This document shows, in pieces, positions 14,887 to 35,881 of a DNA stretch of 64,000 bases. Numbering within the stretch: position 1 is the stretch's first letter; the number at the start of each line of letters is the position of its first letter. Origin of the DNA: Myroides odoratus (lineage in GTDB: Bacteria; Bacteroidota; Bacteroidia; Flavobacteriales; Flavobacteriaceae); NCBI RefSeq assembly GCF_001549985.1, contig NZ_LROZ01000006.1:62001-126000 (forward strand), in the 5' to 3' direction. The notes below the pieces were generated by a model. That model saw nothing but the letters and a program-made list of their open reading frames with translations. It did not search any database and was not told the origin of the DNA. A program made the translations under genes and the position numbers.

Positions 14887-16338
14887 TTAATCTTCTTGCA
14901 TTGGTGAATAACCAACAGCCTTACCGATTAAGGTAGCAGAAGTACAATCTTCAACGTATACTTCTACAAAGTCACCTACTTTATAATTTTCTTTCGGGAA
15001 TACAACCGTTGTATTCTGTGAATTTCTTCCACTCCACTCTAAATCTGAACGCTTTGATGTTTTTTCAATCAACACCTCTACTGTTTGTCCTACAAAACGC
15101 TTTGTACGCTCTAAGCTAATCTTACCTTGTACTGCGATAATTTCGCTCAAACGACGTTTTTTCACTTCTTCTGGAATGTCGTCTTCTAGTTTACGTGCAG
15201 CTAAAGTACCTGGGCGTTCTGAATAAGCAAACATAAACCCAAAGTCATAGCGAACATGCTCCATTAACGAAAGCGTATCTTGGTGATCTTCCTCTGTTTC
15301 TGTAGGGAAACCTGTAATCATATCCTGTGAAAGAGAAATATCAGGGATTAACGCATAAATCTTGTCTACTAATTCGATGTATTCCTCTCTTGTATGTTGA
15401 CGATTCATTTCTTGTAAGATACGTGTACTTCCTGATTGAACAGGCAAGTGAATGTATTTACAAATGTTGTCATGATTAGCGATTACCTCAATTACTTCCA
15501 TGTGCATATCCTGTGGATTTGACGTTGAAAAACGGAATCTCATCTTCGGGAATTTTGTAGCACATAAGTCTAAAAGCTGAGCGAAATCAACCGCTGTCGC
15601 TTTTTGAATGTCTGAGGCCTTGTCATAATCTTTCTTTAGTCCACCTCCATACCAAAGGTAACTATCTACGTTTTGACCTAACAACGTAATTTCTTTGAAG
15701 CCTCTTTCGTATAAGTCTTGGATTTCTGAAATAATACTGTGTGGTTCTCTACTGCGTTCACGTCCTCTTGTGAAAGGCACAACACAAAACGTACACATGT
15801 TGTCACAACCTCTTGTGATCGACACAAAAGCAGTAACACCATTACTTTGTAAACGAACAGGAGCAATATCACCATAGGTTTCATCTTTTGATAAAATGAC
15901 GTTGATAGCATCTCGACCTTCGTCTACTTCTTTTAAAAGATTAGGAAGATCTTTGTAAGCATCAGGTCCGACTACCATATCGACAATCTTCTCTTCTTCT
16001 AAGAATTTACTTTTTAGACGTTCTGCCATACAACCTAACACCCCCACTTTCATTCCTGGGTTCTTTTTCTTTACTCGGTTGTATTGGTCTAAGCGTTTGC
16101 GTACGGTTTGTTCCGCTTTGTCGCGAATAGAACAAGTGTTTACTAAAACTAAATCAGCTTCTTCTAAGTTATTGGTTGTATTATATCCTGCGTCAGATAA
16201 AATGGAAGCAACGATTTCACTATCTGAAAAATTCATTTGACAACCATAGCTTTCAATAAAAAGCTTCTTAGTGTTGTCTCTATTCTGTTCTAGCTGTAAG
16301 CTCGTTCCTTGTTTATTTTCGTCAATTACCTTTTCCAT
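14887..16338 (-). CDS. miaB: tRNA-2-methylthio-N6-dimethylallyladenosine synthase MiaB
   Basis: A 483-aa radical-SAM methylthiotransferase modifying A37 of tRNAs. The N-terminal domain binds an iron-sulfur cluster through C33 (YGCQMN), C69 and C103 (LGCMAERL). The radical-SAM cluster uses C178, C182 and C185 in RGCDNMCTFC. A TRAM domain follows at the C-terminus (about 405-475). A consensus promoter lies upstream at 16373-16402. It heads the minus-strand cluster reaching secG. Confidence 0.97.
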   Translation of the reverse strand: MEKVIDENKQGTSLQLEQNRDNTKKLFIESYGCQMNFSDSEIVASILSDAGYNTTNNLEEADLVLVNTCSIRDKAEQTVRKRLDQYNRVKKKNPGMKVGVLGCMAERLKSKFLEEEKIVDMVVGPDAYKDLPNLLKEVDEGRDAINVILSKDETYGDIAPVRLQSNGVTAFVSITRGCDNMCTFCVVPFTRGRERSREPHSIISEIQDLYERGFKEITLLGQNVDSYLWYGGGLKKDYDKASDIQKATAVDFAQLLDLCATKFPKMRFRFSTSNPQDMHMEVIEVIANHDNICKYIHLPVQSGSTRILQEMNRQHTREEYIELVDKIYALIPDISLSQDMITGFPTETEEDHQDTLSLMEHVRYDFGFMFAYSERPGTLAARKLEDDIPEEVKKRRLSEIIAVQGKISLERTKRFVGQTVEVLIEKTSKRSDLEWSGRNSQNTTVVFPKENYKVGDFVEVYVEDCTSATLIGKAVGYSPMQED

Positions 16339-16372
16339 ATGATTATTTAAAAGGGAGTTTTATTTTAAGTCA

Positions 16373-16402
16373 CAAAGATAGTTTAATTTTATTTGCTGAC
16401 AA
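16373..16402 (-). promoter_or_regulatory. Consensus promoter of miaB
   Basis: On the minus strand TTG (16400-16402), a 19-nt spacer and TATCTTTG (16373-16380) match the Bacteroidota promoter exactly. The -7 box ends 34 nt before the miaB ATG. Confidence 0.75.
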
Positions 16403-16855
16403 GTTGACAGCTTTATATTTAAGAAGCTCTTAGCGATTTTATTGGAACGATTAGGTCGTCTTTACTCTATTGGTTGGTTTTGCATGGAATTGTCGCTTGA
16501 GGTGTTTTACTGTGGGAATCTTGAATGGTAGCTGAAAAATAGTTTCAATAGGTCATAAGGATACTAAAAAAAGATATTTTTGGTGTAGATGAATGAAAGT
16601 AGTTACTATCGTTTTTCCTTATATTATAGGTGTTGTGAATTGATGTAAAAAGTAAAATACACAAGAAGGTATGTATTAATTACTTTTGTTTTTTTACTTT
16701 TGGACGAATTTCTGTTTGTATAAGGTGTTGGGTAAAAAAAAGAATTTTTTTCTAATCAACGTTAAAAAAGTGTGTATTTTTTAAATCATCGGAAAGGATT
16801 TTAAGAGAAAGTATGAATTATATCGGTTGAAGTAGAAATATTAAGAAAAAACGCA
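16403..16855. other. AT-rich intergenic region between divergent miaB and topA
   Basis: About 450 nt without a recognisable gene. It is very AT-rich with several T and A tracts. A TATTTTTG motif near 16570 resembles a -7 box but has no -33 partner and no ORF after it. I see no strong hairpin or tRNA. Confidence 0.6.
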
Positions 16856-16863
16856 TATTTTTG
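16856..16863 (+). promoter_or_regulatory. -7 promoter element of topA
   Basis: TATTTTTG matches TAnnTTTG and ends 19 nt before the topA ATG. A TTG at 16827-16829 is 26 nt away, longer than usual. Confidence 0.5.
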
Positions 16864-16882
16864 CTTCACAAAAGAATGAAGT

Positions 16883-19405
16883 ATGGCAAAGAATTTAGTG
16901 ATCGTGGAGTCGCCTGCAAAGGCAAAAACAATTGAAAAATTTTTAGGAAAAGATTATCAGGTAGAATCTAGTTATGGACATATAGCGGATTTACCTTCTA
17001 AAGAGATAGGAGTTAATGTAGAAGATAATTTTAAACCCAAATATGAGGTTTCTAGTGATAAGAAAGCTGTAGTAAAGAAGCTAAGAGATCTTTCTAAAAA
17101 TGCAGAAGTTGTTTGGTTAGCTTCCGATGAGGACCGTGAGGGTGAGGCTATTGCTTGGCATTTGGCAGAAGAGTTAAAACTAGATCAAAATAAAACAAAA
17201 CGCATTGTTTTTCACGAAATTACTAAGTCAGCAATTCTAAAAGCGATTGATAACCCAAGAGGGATTAATTATAATTTAGTAAATGCACAACAAGCTAGAC
17301 GTGTATTAGACCGTTTGGTGGGGTATGAGTTATCACCCGTATTGTGGAAAAAAGTAAAAGGAGGATTATCTGCTGGACGTGTTCAGTCTGTAGCTGTTCG
17401 ATTAATTGTTGAAAGAGAAAAAGAAATCAACGATTTTAAAATTGAATCTTCTTATGTTATAACAGCAGAATTCAAAACTGCTGAAGGCAAAGTTGTAAAA
17501 GCAAGATTATCAAAGAATTTTGCTACTGAACAAGAAGCCAAAGATTTTTTAAACCTTAATATAGGAGCAAACTATGCTATTAAGGATTTAGAAACAAAAC
17601 CCGCTAAAAAATCACCAGCCGCACCATTTACAACATCAACCTTACAACAGGAAGCAGCGCGTAAGTTGTATTATTCTGTGGGACAGACGATGATGTTAGC
17701 ACAGCGTTTGTACGAAGAAGGGTATATCACCTATATGAGAACAGATAGTGTGAATTTATCTGAAGAAGCGACAAAAGCAGCAGCAGCAGAAATTGCAAAA
17801 TCATACGGTGCAGAATATGTACAATCTAGAAGTTATGTAACAAAGAGTAAAGGAGCACAAGAAGCGCACGAGGCAATCCGACCTACGAATATGGCGTTAC
17901 ACACTGTTCCTTTAGATAGAGATCAAGCGCGTTTGTATGATTTGATCTGGAAACGTACGTTGGCTTCTCAGATGAGTGATGCTAAATTGGAGCGTACGAA
18001 TGTGAAAATTGGAGCGAATAAGTACAGTGATTTATTCGTCGCTACAGGTGAGGTGTTGTTATTTGATGGATTCTTAAAAGTATATTTAGAAGGACATGAT
18101 GATGAAGAGGAAGAAGTAGAAGGAATCTTACCACACTTAAAAGTAGGAGAGTCGCTTTTATCTAATGCAATTGTGGCAACACAACGCTTTAGTAAACCTG
18201 CTGCTCGTTATACAGAAGCTTCTTTGGTGAAGAAGCTAGAAGAGTTAGGGATTGGGCGACCATCTACGTATGCACCAACGATTTCTACGATTATTGCACG
18301 TAATTATGTAGAAAAAGGAACAACAGAAGGGAAAGAGCGCAATTACAAAGTTATGACGCTAGCTCAAGCTGCTGTGACTGAAAAAGTATTGGTGGAAAAA
18401 ACAGGATCGGATAAAGGAAAAATGATTCCAACAGATATTGGTATTATTGTCAATGATTTCTTAGTAAAGAACTTCAAAACAATCCTTGATTACAACTTTA
18501 CGGCAAAAGTTGAAGAAGATTTTGATGCTATTGCTGCAGGGGAAGAAGATTGGGCGAAGATGATGCGTGAATTTTATGATCACTTCCATCCAACAGTAAA
18601 AGATGTAGAAGAAAACGCAGAGCGTGAATCAGGAGAGCGTATTTTAGGAACGGACCCTGCTTCTGGTAAGCCTGTGTTAGTTCGCTTAGGGAAATTTGGA
18701 CCGATGGCTCAAATTGGTGATGCTGAAGATGAAAATAAACAATTTGCAAGTTTAGCTCCAGATCAAAATATTGGAACAATCACATTAGAAGAGGCGTTAA
18801 AGCTATTCTTATTGCCTCGTATGTTAGGAGAATATAAAGGAGAAGAAGTAGAAGTAAATAACGGGCGATTTGGTCCTTATGTGCGCGTGGGTAAAACGTT
18901 TATTTCTTTGCCAAAAGGATTAGAACCATTAGACGTGTCTTACGAAAAAGCGCTAGAGTTTATTCAAGAGAAAGAAGAAGCCGATAGACCGATTGCTACG
19001 TATAAAGATTTACCTGTACAAAAAGGTGTAGGGCGATTTGGTCCTTACTTGAAGTGGAATAATATTTTTATCAATGTCAATAAGAAATACGATTTTGACA
19101 ATTTATCGAATCAAGATATTATCGAGCTGATTGAAGATAAAATTCAGAAAGAGAAAGATAAGGTTATTCACGATTGGACAGCAGAAGGTATCCGTGTAGA
19201 AAAAGCAAGATGGGGAAGATCTGTGATCTTAAAAGGGAAAGTAAAAATAGAGTTGTCTAAAGATGTAGATGCACAAGCGTTAACGTTGGATGAAGTAAAA
19301 GCAATGATTGAGGCGAAAACACCTGCAAAGAAAACAAAGGCAACAGCAGCTAAAAAACCGGCAGCTAAAAAAGCGACAGCTAAGAAAACAACGACCAAGA
19401 AATAA
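16883..19405 (+). CDS. topA: DNA topoisomerase I
   Basis: An 840-aa type IA topoisomerase that relaxes negative supercoils. The TOPRIM domain opens with VESPAKAKTIEKFLG and has SDEDREGEAIAWHL near 90-104. The active-site tyrosine lies in EGYITYMRTDSVNLS (about 292). No cysteine zinc fingers follow. Instead there are repeats with GRFGPYVRVGKTFISL and GRFGPYLKWNNIFINV (about 675-745), the C-terminal repeat type common in Bacteroidota. The last 30 residues are an Ala/Lys/Thr tail likely to bind DNA. The next gene starts 14 nt on. Confidence 0.97.
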   Translation: MAKNLVIVESPAKAKTIEKFLGKDYQVESSYGHIADLPSKEIGVNVEDNFKPKYEVSSDKKAVVKKLRDLSKNAEVVWLASDEDREGEAIAWHLAEELKLDQNKTKRIVFHEITKSAILKAIDNPRGINYNLVNAQQARRVLDRLVGYELSPVLWKKVKGGLSAGRVQSVAVRLIVEREKEINDFKIESSYVITAEFKTAEGKVVKARLSKNFATEQEAKDFLNLNIGANYAIKDLETKPAKKSPAAPFTTSTLQQEAARKLYYSVGQTMMLAQRLYEEGYITYMRTDSVNLSEEATKAAAAEIAKSYGAEYVQSRSYVTKSKGAQEAHEAIRPTNMALHTVPLDRDQARLYDLIWKRTLASQMSDAKLERTNVKIGANKYSDLFVATGEVLLFDGFLKVYLEGHDDEEEEVEGILPHLKVGESLLSNAIVATQRFSKPAARYTEASLVKKLEELGIGRPSTYAPTISTIIARNYVEKGTTEGKERNYKVMTLAQAAVTEKVLVEKTGSDKGKMIPTDIGIIVNDFLVKNFKTILDYNFTAKVEEDFDAIAAGEEDWAKMMREFYDHFHPTVKDVEENAERESGERILGTDPASGKPVLVRLGKFGPMAQIGDAEDENKQFASLAPDQNIGTITLEEALKLFLLPRMLGEYKGEEVEVNNGRFGPYVRVGKTFISLPKGLEPLDVSYEKALEFIQEKEEADRPIATYKDLPVQKGVGRFGPYLKWNNIFINVNKKYDFDNLSNQDIIELIEDKIQKEKDKVIHDWTAEGIRVEKARWGRSVILKGKVKIELSKDVDAQALTLDEVKAMIEAKTPAKKTKATAAKKPAAKKATAKKTTTKK

Positions 19406-19419
19406 TTGAATAGTAAGGC

Positions 19420-20568
19420 ATGTTAGAACTTTTACGTCCAGTTAGTATTGAATTCAGGAATTATATCGATGGATTACCTAGCCAAAGTCTAGGTAAAAAA
19501 GTTTATTTCCACTCTGGTGGTCCTTTTGATAAGTACGAGCAATATAAAATCGCTATTATAGGGGTGACCGATAATAGAGGATTGGCCTTGGAACCTGCTA
19601 TGGTGGACTTGATGAAAGTTAGAAAAGCCTTTTATACGTTATTTCCTGGGAATTGGAATGTTCGAATAGCAGATTTAGGGGATATTACACCTGGTGAATC
19701 GATAGAGGATACTTATTTTTTATTGAGGAAAGTTGTAGAAGAGCTAGTAAAGAACGGAACAATTCCAGTAGTGATAGGAGGAAGCCAAGATTTGACCTAT
19801 GCGTTGTATCGCGGTTATGATAAATTAGAACAAATGGTGAACCTTGTTTGCATCGATCATAAATTAGATGTGGCAAAAGATGGAGGTCCAGCAGCAGAAA
19901 GTTTCCTATCGAGAATTATTCTAGAAGAACCGAATAATTTGTTTAATTTTTCAAATTTAGGCTACCAAACGTATTATAATTCGCAAGAAGAGATCGATTT
20001 AATTGAAAGTTTATACTTTGAAGCGTACCGAGTTGGCGAAATTATTAATAATATTGCATTGGCGGAACCCGTATTGCGCGATGCTGATATTGTGAGTATC
20101 GACATCAACGCTGTTAAGTCAAGTGATTCAGGTAATTTTGTAACCTATAATCCCAATGGATTTGATGGAAGAGAAATTTGTTCTTTGGCTCGTTATAGTG
20201 GATTAAGCGATAAAGTTAGTACTTTTGGAATATTTAATTATAATAATCAAATAAATGAAACGTTATTATTAGGACAAATATTATGGTATTTTATTGAAGG
20301 GGTGAATTATCGCTACAATGAATATCCGTTTGCCTGTAAGGATAATTATATAAAATATATAGTGCCTTTTGATGATTACGAGAATTTGATATTTTACAAG
20401 AGCGATATTTCCGGAAGATGGTGGATAGAAGTGAATGTTGGAGTAGGTGTTAATGAAAAGTTAACAAAGAAAATCTTGCTGCCTTGTAGCTATGAAGATT
20501 ACGAAAAGGCAACCGCTCAGCAATTACCTGATAGATGGTGGAGAGCATTTAAAAAGAGTTTAGTTTAG
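19420..20568 (+). CDS. Arginase/formiminoglutamase-fold protein with degenerate metal site
   Basis: A 382-aa protein whose pattern follows the ureohydrolase superfamily: VIGGSQDLTYALYRGYD, LVCIDHKLDV, IVSIDINAVKSSDS. The six manganese ligands of that superfamily are mostly missing. GGDH becomes GGSQ (120-123), DxHxD becomes I145-D146-H147-K-L-D150 with shifted aspartates, and SxDxD becomes S226-I-D228-I-N230. A catalytic hydrolase of the usual kind is therefore unlikely despite the probable automated name formimidoylglutamase. It follows topA by 14 nt and precedes gldK, an association I recall from other flavobacteria. A structural or regulatory role in gliding or secretion is only inferred from position. 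Confidence 0.75.
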   Translation: MLELLRPVSIEFRNYIDGLPSQSLGKKVYFHSGGPFDKYEQYKIAIIGVTDNRGLALEPAMVDLMKVRKAFYTLFPGNWNVRIADLGDITPGESIEDTYFLLRKVVEELVKNGTIPVVIGGSQDLTYALYRGYDKLEQMVNLVCIDHKLDVAKDGGPAAESFLSRIILEEPNNLFNFSNLGYQTYYNSQEEIDLIESLYFEAYRVGEIINNIALAEPVLRDADIVSIDINAVKSSDSGNFVTYNPNGFDGREICSLARYSGLSDKVSTFGIFNYNNQINETLLLGQILWYFIEGVNYRYNEYPFACKDNYIKYIVPFDDYENLIFYKSDISGRWWIEVNVGVGVNEKLTKKILLPCSYEDYEKATAQQLPDRWWRAFKKSLV

Positions 20569-20577
20569 GCTTAAAAA

Positions 20578-20601
20578 ATTTAACATTTACATATGTTAAA
20601 T
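20578..20601. repeat. 9-bp inverted repeat in front of gldK
   Basis: ATTTAACAT (20578-20586) and ATGTTAAAT (20593-20601) are perfect inverted copies separated by 6 nt. The repeat ends 17 nt before the gldK -7 box at 20619, overlapping the -33 region. There is no adjacent T tract, so an operator is as likely as a weak terminator of the preceding gene. Confidence 0.5.
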
Positions 20602-20618
20602 ATAAACTAAATTTTTTT

Positions 20619-20626
20619 TAGCTTTG
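20619..20626 (+). promoter_or_regulatory. -7 promoter element of the gldKLMN operon
   Basis: TAGCTTTG matches TAnnTTTG 70 nt before the gldK ATG. No TTG is found at -33; the inverted repeat occupies that position, which would fit a promoter needing an activator. Confidence 0.45.
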
Positions 20627-20696
20627 TTTTTGAAAATTAAAAATAATTGAATACGTTTACATTTTTAAGAAGTATATAAGAAAACCTAAATAATAT

Positions 20697-22097
20697 ATGA
20701 AGAAGATCATTACGTTAGGAGCAGTTTTAGCTTTGGTATGCAGCTGTGGTACTGGAGATCGAGGTGAGTTGTTAGGCGGAGTAGAAGGTAAGAGATGGTC
20801 AACTACGAAGCCTCATGGTATGTCTTTAGTTCCTGGTGGGACTTTTACAATGGGACAATCAAACGAAGATTTCCTTGGTGCACAAGATGCTCCAACAAAA
20901 ACGGTAACTGTTGGTTCATTCTACATGGATGAGACTGCTGTTACAAACAACCAGTACAGAAAATTTGTGGATTGGGTAAAGGATTCGGTTATTCGAACTC
21001 GTTTGGCTATTGCTGCGGATGATATGGGATTGACTCCAGATGGTGGTGGTATTGGTGCTTATGCATTTTTAGATAATGAAGAAAATCTAGATCGTATGAC
21101 ACCTTATCAAAGATATATGTACGAAAATTACTACAGCATGGATAGCAGTGATGATATGTATGCAGGTAGAAGATTGAATAAAAAAGTGAACTTACCTGTA
21201 TCGGTAGATCGTTACCCAGACGAATATTATGTTGAAGTAATGGACTCTTTATACATTCCAGCTTCTGAAACATATAATGGATTAGGTATGTTCGATGCTT
21301 CTAAAATTAAATTTAAATACACGTATGTGGATTTAGAAGGAGCAATGAAAGATAAAGGAAATGATCCTCGTGGAAAACGCAGCAGACACTTAAAAACAGA
21401 AACGTTATTGATCTATCCTGATACAACACGTTGGATTAAAGAATTCCAATATTCTTATAACGAGCCAATGCACAATGATTATTTCTGGCACGAAGCTTTT
21501 GGTGAATATCCTGTAGTGGGTGTGAACTGGAATCAAGCTAGAGCGTTTGCAGCATGGAGAACGTTATACAAAAATACATTCTTACGTTCAAAACGTTTAC
21601 CTTCTGAAGTACATGAATACAGATTGCCAATGGAAAGCGAATGGGAATTTGCTGCTAGAGGTGGTTTAGAAGGAGCAATGTATCCTTGGGGGGGTCCATA
21701 TACAACAGATGAAAAAGGTTGTTTCATGGCAAACTTCAAACCTAGTCGTTTTGACTATGCAGCGGATGGAGCTACTTATACAGCTGAAGCACGTGCTTAT
21801 CCACCAAATGGATATAACCTATATAATATGTCAGGAAACGTGGCAGAGTGGACAAGTTCACCGTATGATTCATCATCTTATGACTTCATGTCAAGCTTAA
21901 AACCAAAAAATAGAAGATCAGATACGCCATTAAAAGTAGTTAGAGGGGGATCTTGGAGAGACCCAGCTTATATGTTACAAGTTGCGACACGTGACTCAGA
22001 GTATGCAGATTCTGCTAGATCATACATCGGATTTAGAACTGTACAATCTGTTTCAGGATCAATGTCAAGAAGCAATGCGTCTAAAATGGCTAAATAA
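20697..22097 (+). CDS. gldK: Gliding motility lipoprotein GldK (PorK)
   Basis: A 466-aa outer-membrane lipoprotein of the type IX secretion core, where GldK and GldN form a periplasmic ring. The signal peptide ends with VCSC (lipidated C17). A formylglycine-generating-enzyme-like (SUMF1) fold follows: MSLVPGGTFTMGQS (about 41-54), VVGVNWNQARAFAAWR, RLPMESEWEFAARGG, NVAEWTSSPYDSSS and VVRGGSWRDPAYML. The catalytic cysteines of true formylglycine enzymes are not evident. First gene of gldKLMN; 55 nt to gldL. Confidence 0.95.
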   Translation: MKKIITLGAVLALVCSCGTGDRGELLGGVEGKRWSTTKPHGMSLVPGGTFTMGQSNEDFLGAQDAPTKTVTVGSFYMDETAVTNNQYRKFVDWVKDSVIRTRLAIAADDMGLTPDGGGIGAYAFLDNEENLDRMTPYQRYMYENYYSMDSSDDMYAGRRLNKKVNLPVSVDRYPDEYYVEVMDSLYIPASETYNGLGMFDASKIKFKYTYVDLEGAMKDKGNDPRGKRSRHLKTETLLIYPDTTRWIKEFQYSYNEPMHNDYFWHEAFGEYPVVGVNWNQARAFAAWRTLYKNTFLRSKRLPSEVHEYRLPMESEWEFAARGGLEGAMYPWGGPYTTDEKGCFMANFKPSRFDYAADGATYTAEARAYPPNGYNLYNMSGNVAEWTSSPYDSSSYDFMSSLKPKNRRSDTPLKVVRGGSWRDPAYMLQVATRDSEYADSARSYIGFRTVQSVSGSMSRSNASKMAK

Positions 22098-22152: not shown

Positions 22153-22824
22153 ATGGCAATACCTAAAAAAGTAATGAACTTCTGTTATGGAATGGGGGCT
22201 TCAGTTGTAATTATCGGTGCATTATTTAAGATTACGCACATGGAGTTAGGTCCAATTAATGGAAATAATATGCTAACTTTAGGATTGGTTGTAGAAGCTC
22301 TTATTTTTGCGATATCTGCTTTTGAACCAGTTGATGACGAGTTAGATTGGTCTAAAGTGTATCCAGAATTAAAAGGTGGAGAACCAACACAAGTTAGAGG
22401 TGGTGGTAGTGCTGTAGGATTTGTTGGCGGTGGAACAACAGAAGAACAAGGTATGTTATCTAAAAAATTAGATGATTTATTGAAAGAAGCGAAAATTGAC
22501 GGTGAGTTAATGAATAGTTTAAGCAAAAGTATCAGAAACTTTGAAGCAGCATCAAAAGAAATTGCTCCAACTGTAGATTCTGTAGCTTCTACTAGAAAAT
22601 ATGCTGAAGAAATGTCAATGGCTGCTGCTCAATTAGAATCTTTAAACTCAATGTATAAAGTACAATTGGAAAGTGCTACTCGTAACGCTGAAATCAATAA
22701 AGAAGTTGCCGAAAATAATATTAAATTAAAAGAGCAAATGTCTGCTTTGACAAGCAATCTATCTTCTTTAAACACTGTTTATGGAGGAATGCTTTCTGCA
22801 ATGGGAAACCGCGGTGCTAATTAA
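22153..22824 (+). CDS. gldL: T9SS motor protein GldL (PorL)
   Basis: A 223-aa inner-membrane protein that with GldM forms the proton-driven motor energising type IX secretion and gliding. Two transmembrane helices lie at about 10-26 and 40-58. Charged residues K26, H29 and the intramembrane E48 correspond to those needed for motor function in relatives (one position earlier here). The remainder (about 90-223) is cytoplasmic, with helices rich in Ala, Glu, Asn and Ser. It starts 55 nt after gldK and 26 nt before gldM. Confidence 0.95.
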   Translation: MAIPKKVMNFCYGMGASVVIIGALFKITHMELGPINGNNMLTLGLVVEALIFAISAFEPVDDELDWSKVYPELKGGEPTQVRGGGSAVGFVGGGTTEEQGMLSKKLDDLLKEAKIDGELMNSLSKSIRNFEAASKEIAPTVDSVASTRKYAEEMSMAAAQLESLNSMYKVQLESATRNAEINKEVAENNIKLKEQMSALTSNLSSLNTVYGGMLSAMGNRGAN

Positions 22825-22850: not shown

Positions 22851-24416
22851 ATGGCAGGAGGAGCAAAATTGACACCTAGACAAAAGATGATTAACCTTAT
22901 GTATCTTGTGTTCATCGCGATGATGGCACTTCAGATGTCAAAGGAGGTTTTATCAGCTTTTGGTATGGTAAACGATAAATTTGAATCGGCGAACGTTTCG
23001 GCGATGACAAATAATACTAGCTTGCTAGAGAGTTTAGAAGTGAGAGCTTCGGATGATCCAGCTCGCTTTGGAGAACCTTACAAAAGAGCAAAACAAGTAG
23101 CAGTTATTACAAAAGAATTTTTTGATTATATTACTACTGTAAAAACGATGATTACTGAACCTTTAGAAGAACAACGTATTGATGGAAAATTACCAGCAGA
23201 GCGTATGGATAAAGGGGATGTAATTGATCAAGCTTGGTTTAATGGAGATAAATACTCTGCACAAGGAGAGGAATTTATTGGAGCAATTGAAAAATACAAG
23301 AAAGATATTGCTGACGTTCTTACAGAAGATACGAAGTACCAACTAATTATGGTTGAATTGCAAAATAGATTTGATTTAGCCGATGTAAAAGATGGAGAAG
23401 GAGTTGTAAAGCCTTATTTAAATTACAATTTCCAAGGATTCCCAGCAATTGCATCGTTGACTAAATTATCTACGATGCAGAATGATGCAAAAGTAATTGA
23501 GCATGATTTCTACAACTTATTGTTAGGAAACACATTGAGTCAAGCGGCTTCTATGCGTAATTATAAAGCGATTGTTATTTCTGAGAAATCAGCTTATTTT
23601 GCTGGTGAACAATTTAAAGGAATGGTTGTTCTAGGTCGTTATGACCAATCAACTGTACCAACTGAAGTAATCGTAAACGGACAAAAAGTTGATTTGTCAA
23701 AAGCGTTAGACAATGGACGTGTAAACTTAGGTTTCAGTACAGGTAACGTGGGAGAGCATGAATTTAAAGGTAAATTTACATTCATGGAAGATGGACAAGC
23801 AATTCCAGTTGACTTTACAGGAAACTATGTTGTTGTACCAAAACCAAATCAAGCGAACATCTCTGCAGATAAAATGAACGTTGTTTATCGTGGGGTAACT
23901 AACCCAATGACGATCTCTTTTGCTGGTATTTCGGATGATAAAGTAGTAGCTTCTGCTCCTGGTTTATCTAAAGGAGGAAAAGCAGGACAGTATAACATGC
24001 GTCCACAAGCAGGTAGAGAAGTTACAATCAACGTAACTGGAAAATTACCTGACGGAACATCTGTAAGCGATAAAAAAGTATTTAGAATTAAAGATATTCC
24101 TGCACCTCGTGGTACAGTTCGTGGTGAATACGCTGCGAAAGGACCTAAGTCTAACTTAGAAGTGGTAACCATCGGTGCAAAATTAGAAGATTTTGATTTT
24201 GAATTAGGTTTAACAGTTACAGGATTTGTATTGCAAGTTCCAGGACAACCTTCTGTGGTAGTTCAAGGAAATAGAATGAATGACAGAGCGAAAGCTGCGA
24301 TTTCTAAAGCAAGACTAGGGGATGTGGTTGTTATTTCTGATATCAAGGTACGTTTAGACGGTGCAAGTGATTATGCATTGAAGAAAACAGCACCTTGTAC
24401 ATTCGAAATCATGTAA
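22851..24416 (+). CDS. gldM: T9SS motor protein GldM (PorM)
   Basis: A 521-aa inner-membrane-anchored periplasmic shaft. The N-terminus AGGAKLTPRQKMINLMYLVF leads into a single transmembrane helix (about 14-33) that sits inside the GldL pentamer. The rest is a long periplasmic part of four domains, reaching the GldK/GldN ring. Length and opening residues match the family. Third gene of the operon. Confidence 0.95.
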   Translation: MAGGAKLTPRQKMINLMYLVFIAMMALQMSKEVLSAFGMVNDKFESANVSAMTNNTSLLESLEVRASDDPARFGEPYKRAKQVAVITKEFFDYITTVKTMITEPLEEQRIDGKLPAERMDKGDVIDQAWFNGDKYSAQGEEFIGAIEKYKKDIADVLTEDTKYQLIMVELQNRFDLADVKDGEGVVKPYLNYNFQGFPAIASLTKLSTMQNDAKVIEHDFYNLLLGNTLSQAASMRNYKAIVISEKSAYFAGEQFKGMVVLGRYDQSTVPTEVIVNGQKVDLSKALDNGRVNLGFSTGNVGEHEFKGKFTFMEDGQAIPVDFTGNYVVVPKPNQANISADKMNVVYRGVTNPMTISFAGISDDKVVASAPGLSKGGKAGQYNMRPQAGREVTINVTGKLPDGTSVSDKKVFRIKDIPAPRGTVRGEYAAKGPKSNLEVVTIGAKLEDFDFELGLTVTGFVLQVPGQPSVVVQGNRMNDRAKAAISKARLGDVVVISDIKVRLDGASDYALKKTAPCTFEIM

Positions 24417-24452
24417 TTTCGAAATAAATAAAAGAAGAAAACTTTGAATAAT

Positions 24453-25340
24453 ATGAACTGGAAAAAAATTTCACTATTTGTAGCATTTTCAATATTCTCA
24501 TTGCAATCATTTGCACAAAGCAACTTATTAAATGCTAAGTCTGCTGAGGAAATTGGAATGAAAAGTATTCAAGAAATATACGTACAAAGCGAAGGACCAA
24601 TTCCATACGGGTATGTAGCAGATAAGGATATCCTATTTGGTATTAAAGTATGGGAAAACATTTCTCTTGAAGAGAAAGCTAATGAGTCTTATTACTATCC
24701 AATCGAAGAAGTATCTGGAGATGGAAGAAAATCAATGTTCCAAGCTTTGATTGATGGTATTAAGTCTGGAGCTATCACAGAAGTATACGATGATAGTGAC
24801 TTTAAAAGAAAAAGAACGTTAAAGGAACTTGAAACATCTTTCGTGAAAGTTGATACTACAGATGCTGGTATTGAATACTATAATGCTGGTGAAAGAATTC
24901 CAGAGGAATATATTCAACGTATTGAATTACGTCCATCTGATGTAAAATCGTATCACGTTTTGGGATTGTGGTATTTTGACCGCAATGAGGGACAATTAAA
25001 ATATCGTTTATTGGGAATTGCTCCAGTAGTAGTTGACCTTTACACGAAAGGAGCTGAGGTAGAAAACGCAGTTGAATTGTTTTGGATTTTCTTCCCAGAT
25101 GCTAGAAACACGTTATTCGATGCTCAAGTATTTAACTCGAAAAACCCAATGAATCCAATGAATTTTGATCATTTGTTAAACGCTAGACGCTTTAGCTCTA
25201 CGATTTACAAAGCAGATAATCAATATGGAGATTCTCGTATCAACGATTATATCAAAGGTGGAGAGTTAAGTCAATTATTTGAAGGCGAACGCATCAAAGA
25301 ATTGATCAGAAACCTTGAAGATGATTTATGGAATTACTAA
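24453..25340 (+). CDS. gldN: T9SS ring protein GldN (PorN)
   Basis: A 295-aa periplasmic protein that pairs with GldK. A signal peptide MNWKKISLFVAFSIFSLQSFAQ is clear. The body has the family features EIYVQSEGPIPYGYVADKD-like opening, TSFVKVDT and a C-terminal AVELFWIFFPDARNTLFDAQVF-type segment. A TTG at 24444 is in frame, but the ATG at 24453 begins the signal peptide properly, so I chose it. A long perfect hairpin ends the operon. Confidence 0.94.
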   Translation: MNWKKISLFVAFSIFSLQSFAQSNLLNAKSAEEIGMKSIQEIYVQSEGPIPYGYVADKDILFGIKVWENISLEEKANESYYYPIEEVSGDGRKSMFQALIDGIKSGAITEVYDDSDFKRKRTLKELETSFVKVDTTDAGIEYYNAGERIPEEYIQRIELRPSDVKSYHVLGLWYFDRNEGQLKYRLLGIAPVVVDLYTKGAEVENAVELFWIFFPDARNTLFDAQVFNSKNPMNPMNFDHLLNARRFSSTIYKADNQYGDSRINDYIKGGELSQLFEGERIKELIRNLEDDLWNY

Positions 25341-30305: not shown

Positions 30306-30312
30306 GGCTTAG

Positions 30313-30385
30313 TAGCGGGAACAGGACTCGAACCTGTGACCTTCGGGTTATGAGCCCGACGAGCTGCCTACTGCTCTATCCCGCG
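30313..30385 (-). tRNA. Initiator tRNA-Met (CAT), copy 1
   Basis: A 73-nt cloverleaf with anticodon CAT. The initiator type is shown by the unpaired first position (C1 opposite U72) and three consecutive G-C pairs in the anticodon stem (TCGGG-CTCATAA-CCCGA). The T loop is TTCGAGT. CCA is not encoded: the sequence continues CTAAGCC. A consensus promoter lies upstream and a terminator downstream. It is identical to copy 2 at 35809-35881. Confidence 0.95.
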
Positions 30386-35801: not shown

Positions 35802-35808
35802 GGCTTAG

Positions 35809-35881
35809 TAGCGGGAACAGGACTCGAACCTGTGACCTTCGGGTTATGAGCCCGACGAGCTGCCTACTGCTCTATCCCGCG
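35809..35881 (-). tRNA. Initiator tRNA-Met (CAT), copy 2
   Basis: All 73 nt are identical to the copy at 30313-30385, including C1-U72 and the three G-C pairs of the anticodon stem. It has its own promoter and terminator, so both copies look functional. Confidence 0.95.

Follow-up and report, generated by a model that had tools for sequence, protein, structure and literature searches.

The window, a stretch of 64,000 nucleotides from Myroides odoratus, carries directly upstream of the type IX secretion system (T9SS) motor genes an arginase-fold protein whose status as a pseudoenzyme is supported by its aligned residues. Here an enzyme fold has probably been turned to a different task. We infer a non-catalytic accessory role in secretion or gliding, and the full reading, a cytosolic pseudoenzyme that serves the type IX secretion/gliding apparatus as such an accessory, has in our judgement about an even chance of being right. 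The gene and its family are called ARG in the following; L-, G- and f-numbers are labels of loci, genomes and families, and class and order are those of the window genome in the GTDB lineage. The gene and its relevant parts are as follows.

19420..20568, + strand: ARG, arginase-fold pseudoenzyme of 382 amino acids (exact open reading frame, 382 codons plus stop)
19786..19788, + strand: codon of Gln123, which replaces ligand H101 (ligand alignment)
19855..19869, + strand: codons of D146-H147-K148-L149-D150, with D124 and D128 kept and H126 replaced by Lys (ligand alignment)
20101..20109, + strand: codons of D228-I229-N230, with D232 kept and D234 replaced by Asn (ligand alignment)
20317..20565, + strand: extra, family-specific C-terminal domain, residues 300-382, about 80 residues (ortholog alignment)

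Arginase fold and metal ligands

ARG belongs to the arginase fold both by its match to the Pfam family Arginase (PF00491, 40.6 bits, cut-off 22) and by superposition of its predicted structure, with the arginase domain comprising residues about 13-300. The AlphaFold2 model, built with 52 Flavobacteriaceae sequences (pLDDT 88.1, pTM 0.90), was aligned by its residues 20-299 with the formiminoglutamase 4mxr from T. cruzi (VIA-align, Z 32.9, rmsd 2.3, 272 aligned residues), and the fold assignment of the preliminary description, for which a structure model had been proposed as a check, is borne out. While 4mxr is the best match in VIA-align, the best profile match is the formimidoylglutamase 3m1r, and the top row in Foldseek is the agmatinase 3pzl. 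No signal peptide was seen by eye in the sequence, and by its N-terminus ARG looks cytosolic.

The ligand columns were defined by an alignment with 11 reference proteins of the arginase family, two of them paralogs from the same genome and the remaining nine from the same phylum but other classes. The motifs GGSQ (120-123), IDHKLD (145-150) and SIDIN (226-230) had been read correctly from the start, together with the conclusion that the ligand positions are altered; what had not been separated are the three ligands lost (H101 to Q123, H126 to K148, D234 to N230) and the three kept (D124 as D146, D128 as D150, D232 as D228), such that the columns read Q123/D146/K148/D150/D228/N230 in the window. 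Among 174 unique orthologs, the canonical residue is retained at H101 in 22, at D124 in 166, at H126 in 4, at D128 in 160, at D232 in 166 and at D234 in 6, and three ligands are kept in 140 proteins, four in 22, two in 4 and one in 8. With a maximum of four out of six, a six-ligand binuclear site was found in none of the 174, and the altered site in the window is no chance event; the case for ligand loss, as for gene order, is stronger than first described. In the alignment of orthologues, which had been suggested earlier as a check, the loss of at least two ligands is common to all 174; the link to the T9SS is usual and not universal.

H126 and D234, which we take to be the ligands unique to the second manganese, are present in 11 of 11 references, and since they are absent from nearly all 174 orthologs, their loss looks ancient. 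The H101 column, where His is not kept, mostly holds Gln (115 Gln and 3 His in the 118 f1 sequences). Taken by itself, the first histidine says little and is not decisive, because Asn occupies its place in the B. subtilis formimidoylglutamase 3m1r, which reads GGDN in this column, as well as in the natural T. cruzi enzyme, given that the title of 4myn names the variant N114H. One of the 11 references also has Asn here, and the earlier statement that every one of the six ligands is required goes too far for this first ligand.

The residues H/Q101, D124, D128 and D232 presumably form one metal position, Mn-A. The main rival explanation, rather unlikely in our view, is that ARG is still an enzyme or a ligand sensor, in which a one-metal site would bind an amidine-like ligand or perform other chemistry. 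It can be rationalized by the joint presence of D124, D128 and D232 in 159 of the 174 orthologs (the exceptions include four f2 and five f5 rows) and by the E277 column, Asn in the window, which is still Glu in 63 of the 169 non-f5 orthologs; the same column, however, carries Asn 86 times and Gly 17 times, and pocket residues such as Q183 are common to 9 of 11 references, so that their conservation proves little. Furthermore, the gene persists in the four f2 rows without H101, D124, H126, D128 and D232, and in the five f5 rows with their eroded ligand site, which argues against a one-metal enzyme or sensor. The f2 proteins (L064-L067) stand apart by a very long branch (2.84), by the loss of five of six ligands and by loci without a nearby gldK, and offer a natural experiment on relaxed or altered constraint.

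Paralogs, known relatives and the C-terminal domain

The window's genome holds two further arginase-family genes, L001 and L002, each with all six ligands. L001 adjoins the gene for kynureninase and L002 adjoins hutI (402.9 bits, cut-off 298.15), both neighbours scoring above their cut-offs, and L002 is likely HutG; the NCBIfam equivalog for hutG (cut-off 229.15) does not discriminate here, with 47.8 bits for ARG and 94.3 bits for the hutI-linked L002. HutG (3m1r, 4mxr) is closest to ARG by profile and by VIA-align, and these matches speak for ARG as a working formimidoylglutamase, next to an agmatinase in the first row of Foldseek; the ligand loss and the presence of L002 with its intact ligands beside hutI make this hardly credible. 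ARG differs from HutG in the loss of H126 and D234, in its extra C-terminal domain and in the lack of hut neighbours, its own being topA and gldK. The preliminary view that ARG would not be a working formiminoglutamase is well supported at the level of sequence, by the missing H126 and D234, the intact L002 beside hutI and a family that groups separately from the references.

A tree of 59 proteins places all 48 ARG family members together, divided from the 11 references by a branch with support 99/99; the root was set at the midpoint, and L001 and L002 form long branches that meet, such that their placement is unsure. ARG is constrained by purifying selection: the median dN/dS of 34 close Flavobacteriaceae pairs, taken from 16 chosen loci with ARG dS below 1.2 and near saturation, amounts to 0.043 for ARG, in comparison with 0.033 for topA, 0.031 for gldK, 0.094 for gldL and 0.139 for gldM. 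Hence the three marks of a pseudoenzyme, a fold that is kept, metal ligands that are lost and a protein that is conserved, are found together in ARG. No relative of ARG was found in viral contigs, and no match on plasmids.

Arginase-fold pseudoenzymes are already known as a kind. For the arginase-like protein from T. brucei, we know of no secretion-gene neighbours. Like ARG, it has the arginase fold with metal ligands replaced, but it comes from another kingdom and different residues are exchanged; 4rhm is a quadruple mutant of this protein, concerning S149, R151, S153 and S226 according to its title, and in the available passages of a review (PMC10820115, citing Hai et al. 2015) the protein is termed inactive. 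MetCb, or MefH beta, of metformin hydrolase likewise has the arginase fold, with three to five of the six ligands lost in its clade (PMC11271267, available passages). It might be argued on these grounds that ARG is an inactive subunit within a heteromeric ureohydrolase, in the manner of MetCb with MetCa, as in metformin hydrolase an active subunit is joined by one lacking five of six ligands (same passages of PMC11271267) and two six-ligand paralogs exist in the window's genome. This is very unlikely, in that MetCb is encoded beside its active partner, whereas ARG, in the loci examined, adjoins topA, porP, gldK or unrelated genes with no active arginase-family partner alongside, and in that ARG is the sole PF00491 match in 3 of 37 genomes (G099, G734, G736). 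The ligands of the inactive subunit were not found in the available passages of PMC11399263.

A special feature of the family is the C-terminal domain, predicted to consist of four strands and two helices. W334 and C356 occur in 169 of 169 non-f5 orthologs, F325 and A364 in 168, while all 11 references have a gap at the columns of W334 and C356. The model of the isolated domain is modest (pLDDT 76.6, pTM 0.65). Searched alone against Pfam, it gave nothing for the window row and eight weak families, none of them in more than 4 of 52 rows; against the PDB, Foldseek returned no match at E 0.001 or better, and the best VIA-align match had Z 3.6. From these searches the fold can be called neither known nor new. 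The domain profile matches once in the window's genome, a separate search that serves as the positive control, and in 0 of 34 genomes of other classes.

Gene order and transcription around ARG

The genes that flank ARG, and a promoter-like element downstream of it, are located as follows.

16883..19405, + strand: topA, DNA topoisomerase I (TIGR01051, 701.4 bits, cut-off 456.4), 14 nt upstream of ARG
20630..20658, + strand: promoter-like TTG-N19-TACGTTT before gldK (pattern scan of gaps)
20697..22097, + strand: gldK/porK (TIGR03525, 532.8 bits, cut-off 350), 128 nt after ARG
22153..22824, + strand: gldL/porL (TIGR03513, 211.1 bits, cut-off 68.3)
22851..24416, + strand: gldM/porM (TIGR03517, 481.2 bits, cut-off 180)
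24444..25340, + strand: gldN/porN (TIGR03523, 221.7 bits, cut-off 85.9)

ARG thus stands directly before the T9SS motor operon, as had been described, with gldK at 20697 as the next gene and gldL, gldM and gldN behind it. Of the named Flavobacteriaceae loci, 78 of 80 have the order topA-ARG-gldK and two are truncated by contig ends; the whole cluster is found in 15 of 15 further f1 loci. At least 17 family labels of the class share the order topA-ARG-(porP)-gldKLMN. Among the matches listed, GldM lies downstream of ARG on the same strand within 10 kb in at least 42 of 61 class genomes (17 family labels including f1), which is a lower bound, as G605 was counted as non-adjacent and proved adjacent. 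Within the order, ARG and GldM are adjacent in 7 of 9 further genomes among the matches listed (G730, G731, G733, G739, G740, G818, G971) and not adjacent in G833 and G873. All 20 loci from other families, 19 of which were picked for known GldM proximity and one not, show ARG-porP-gldK-gldL-gldM-gldN, with topA upstream in 19 and, in 18 of these, without an intervening open reading frame of about 80 or more residues. Since it recurs in loci of other families, the topA-ARG-gldKLMN cluster is old.

Departures from this order are of several kinds. Neither topA nor gldK was found within about 4.5 kb of ARG in the f3, f4, f8 and f9 loci (6, 12, 5 and 2 loci, respectively). Three f5 loci (L081, L082, L083) carry a shortened ARG (277-335 aa) at another T9SS locus, flanked on one side by an OmpA-like gene and on the other by murF and a GldJ-like gene (404-411 bits, cut-off 458.2), which form a convergent group, with porP present too in two of the three. 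Some minor observations may be added: the end of topA (19340-19405) encodes a lysine/alanine-rich tail, a tandem pair of porP matches lies between ARG and gldK in L186, and two tRNA-Met genes on the minus strand, 30312-30385 and 35808-35881, are about 5.5 kb apart.

The spacing of the genes, unlike their order, speaks against the accessory reading. In Flavobacteriaceae, the topA-ARG gap has a median of 3 nt and is at most 15 nt in 65 of the 76 loci with a positive gap, in contrast to a median of 182.5 nt for the ARG-gldK gap (80 loci). The pattern TTG-N18..21-TAnnTTT is present in 73 of 80 ARG-gldK gaps, compared with an average of 9.0, and at most 17, over 300 mononucleotide shuffles, for a pattern that was chosen after inspection of the gaps and for gap sequences that are related; a simple scan for TAnnTTTG hit 46 of 80 gaps, where shuffled sequences averaged 15.2. 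Because of the short gap to topA and the long gap to gldK with its promoter-like element, ARG is likely co-transcribed with topA in Flavobacteriaceae. A sigma-70 scan gave nothing useful, and no terminator-like site was found in 16300-20800. Several ARG-gldK gaps among L094-L173 also share a stretch around GGTTTACG. The proposed link to gldKLMN is real and, with at least 17 family labels, goes much deeper than the sequence of one window could reveal, but it has to be qualified, as the Flavobacteriaceae spacing fits a topA unit and gldK has a promoter-like element of its own.

The same spacing is what favours a further explanation, somewhat less likely still than a one-metal enzyme or sensor, namely that ARG works with topA or in housekeeping and that its position ahead of gldKLMN was simply inherited and is functionally meaningless. 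One f2 locus, L065, fits this explanation with topA-ARG kept and gldK absent from the 10-kb locus. On the other hand, ARG-porP-gldK occurs without an upstream topA match in L050 and L183, and the C-terminal domain is missing from the 34 genomes of other classes, although topA is, to our knowledge, universal in bacteria.

Possible role and co-occurrence with the motor

The preferred reading, a cytosolic, non-catalytic accessory, can be given a more specific form, which is considerably less probable: ARG may act throughout the class as a cytosolic subunit of the GldLM rotary motor, or as its regulator, made from a dead arginase and a new C-terminal domain. By analogy, such a subunit might hold a place like that of inner-face parts in other rotary motors. 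On the preferred reading, an intact ureohydrolase would most likely have been copied early in the class, and the copy would then have lost the second metal site and gained the C-terminal domain. On the same preferred reading ARG most likely acts inside the cell, where its former substrate face, together with the added domain, would bind a component at the inner face, for instance the cytoplasmic domain of GldL (residues 59-189 according to the available passages of PMC8986121), and so help in the assembly or regulation of the motor. In this context one should consider PorK/GldK, which the available passages of PMC12421860 describe as a repurposed formylglycine-generating-enzyme fold that serves as a structural hub. 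Like ARG, for which this is judged by sequence, it is an enzyme fold reused without its chemistry, and it belongs to the same gene cluster; in contrast to ARG, which looks cytosolic, PorK/GldK is a lipoprotein of the outer-membrane ring whose structure has been solved. This parallel, together with the presence of a cytoplasmic domain in GldL, makes a docking role plausible.

The T9SS motor is listed as one of three known proton-driven rotary motors (PMC9127263, abstract), and no soluble cytosolic partner of it is named in the parts consulted of the T9SS literature. Among the open-access papers listed, nothing was found to link arginase-family proteins with gldK: in the available passages of PMC9169529, arginase is a biochemical test and gldK appears only in a reference, and those of PMC7440613 and of PMC7881675, the latter looked up for gldK only, contain no such link. 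If ARG touches the motor, it would give access to the assembly of the motor or the control of its direction; if it does not, any annotation as formimidoylglutamase would still be wrong and would mislead metabolic reconstruction.

In 395 class genomes, the ARG profile matches 368 and GldM 378, with both in 359, GldM only in 19, ARG only in 9 and neither in 8 (Fisher p 2.6e-6, with kinship ignored); the amidohydrolase-like protein that is matched in 359 of the 378 GldM-bearing class genomes is easily overlooked. Five weak best matches (G440, G551, G448, G479, G477) may be paralogs or fragments, and counting them as absent gives 354/24/9/8 with p 1.1e-5. Seven ARG-negative class genomes were derived by comparing the ARG and GldM match tables. 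GldM without ARG is found in f10 (4 genomes), f11 (3) and f12 (3) and in one genome each of f58, f66, f71, f94, f99, f103, f111, f118 and f121. Within the order, G735, G737 and G738 have GldM and no clear ARG ortholog, G738 showing a weak arginase-family match only. As such genomes exist, ARG is not a core part of the T9SS. GldM did not exceed its cut-off in the 34 genomes of other classes, with two weak partial matches.

Among the nine ARG-only genomes, six are less than 90% complete, and in G446 ARG lies 470 bases from a contig end, on the side expected for gldK. In G359 (L055), which is 99% complete, ARG is kept, yet neither GldL nor GldM was found, nor any GldK above its cut-off, as would be expected if ARG worked with topA or in housekeeping. 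Both ARG and GldM are missing from three f11, four f133 and two f128 genomes, G416 and G629, including 4 of 4 tested f133 genomes of 0.3-0.6 Mb, and the absence of ARG from the three motor-less f11 genomes and from the reduced genomes tested argues against the same explanation. The association of ARG with GldM is real and not strict, with exceptions both ways. G972, a candidate for the loss of gldM with ARG kept, was rejected; its contig C51 (5458 bases) ends inside gldK.
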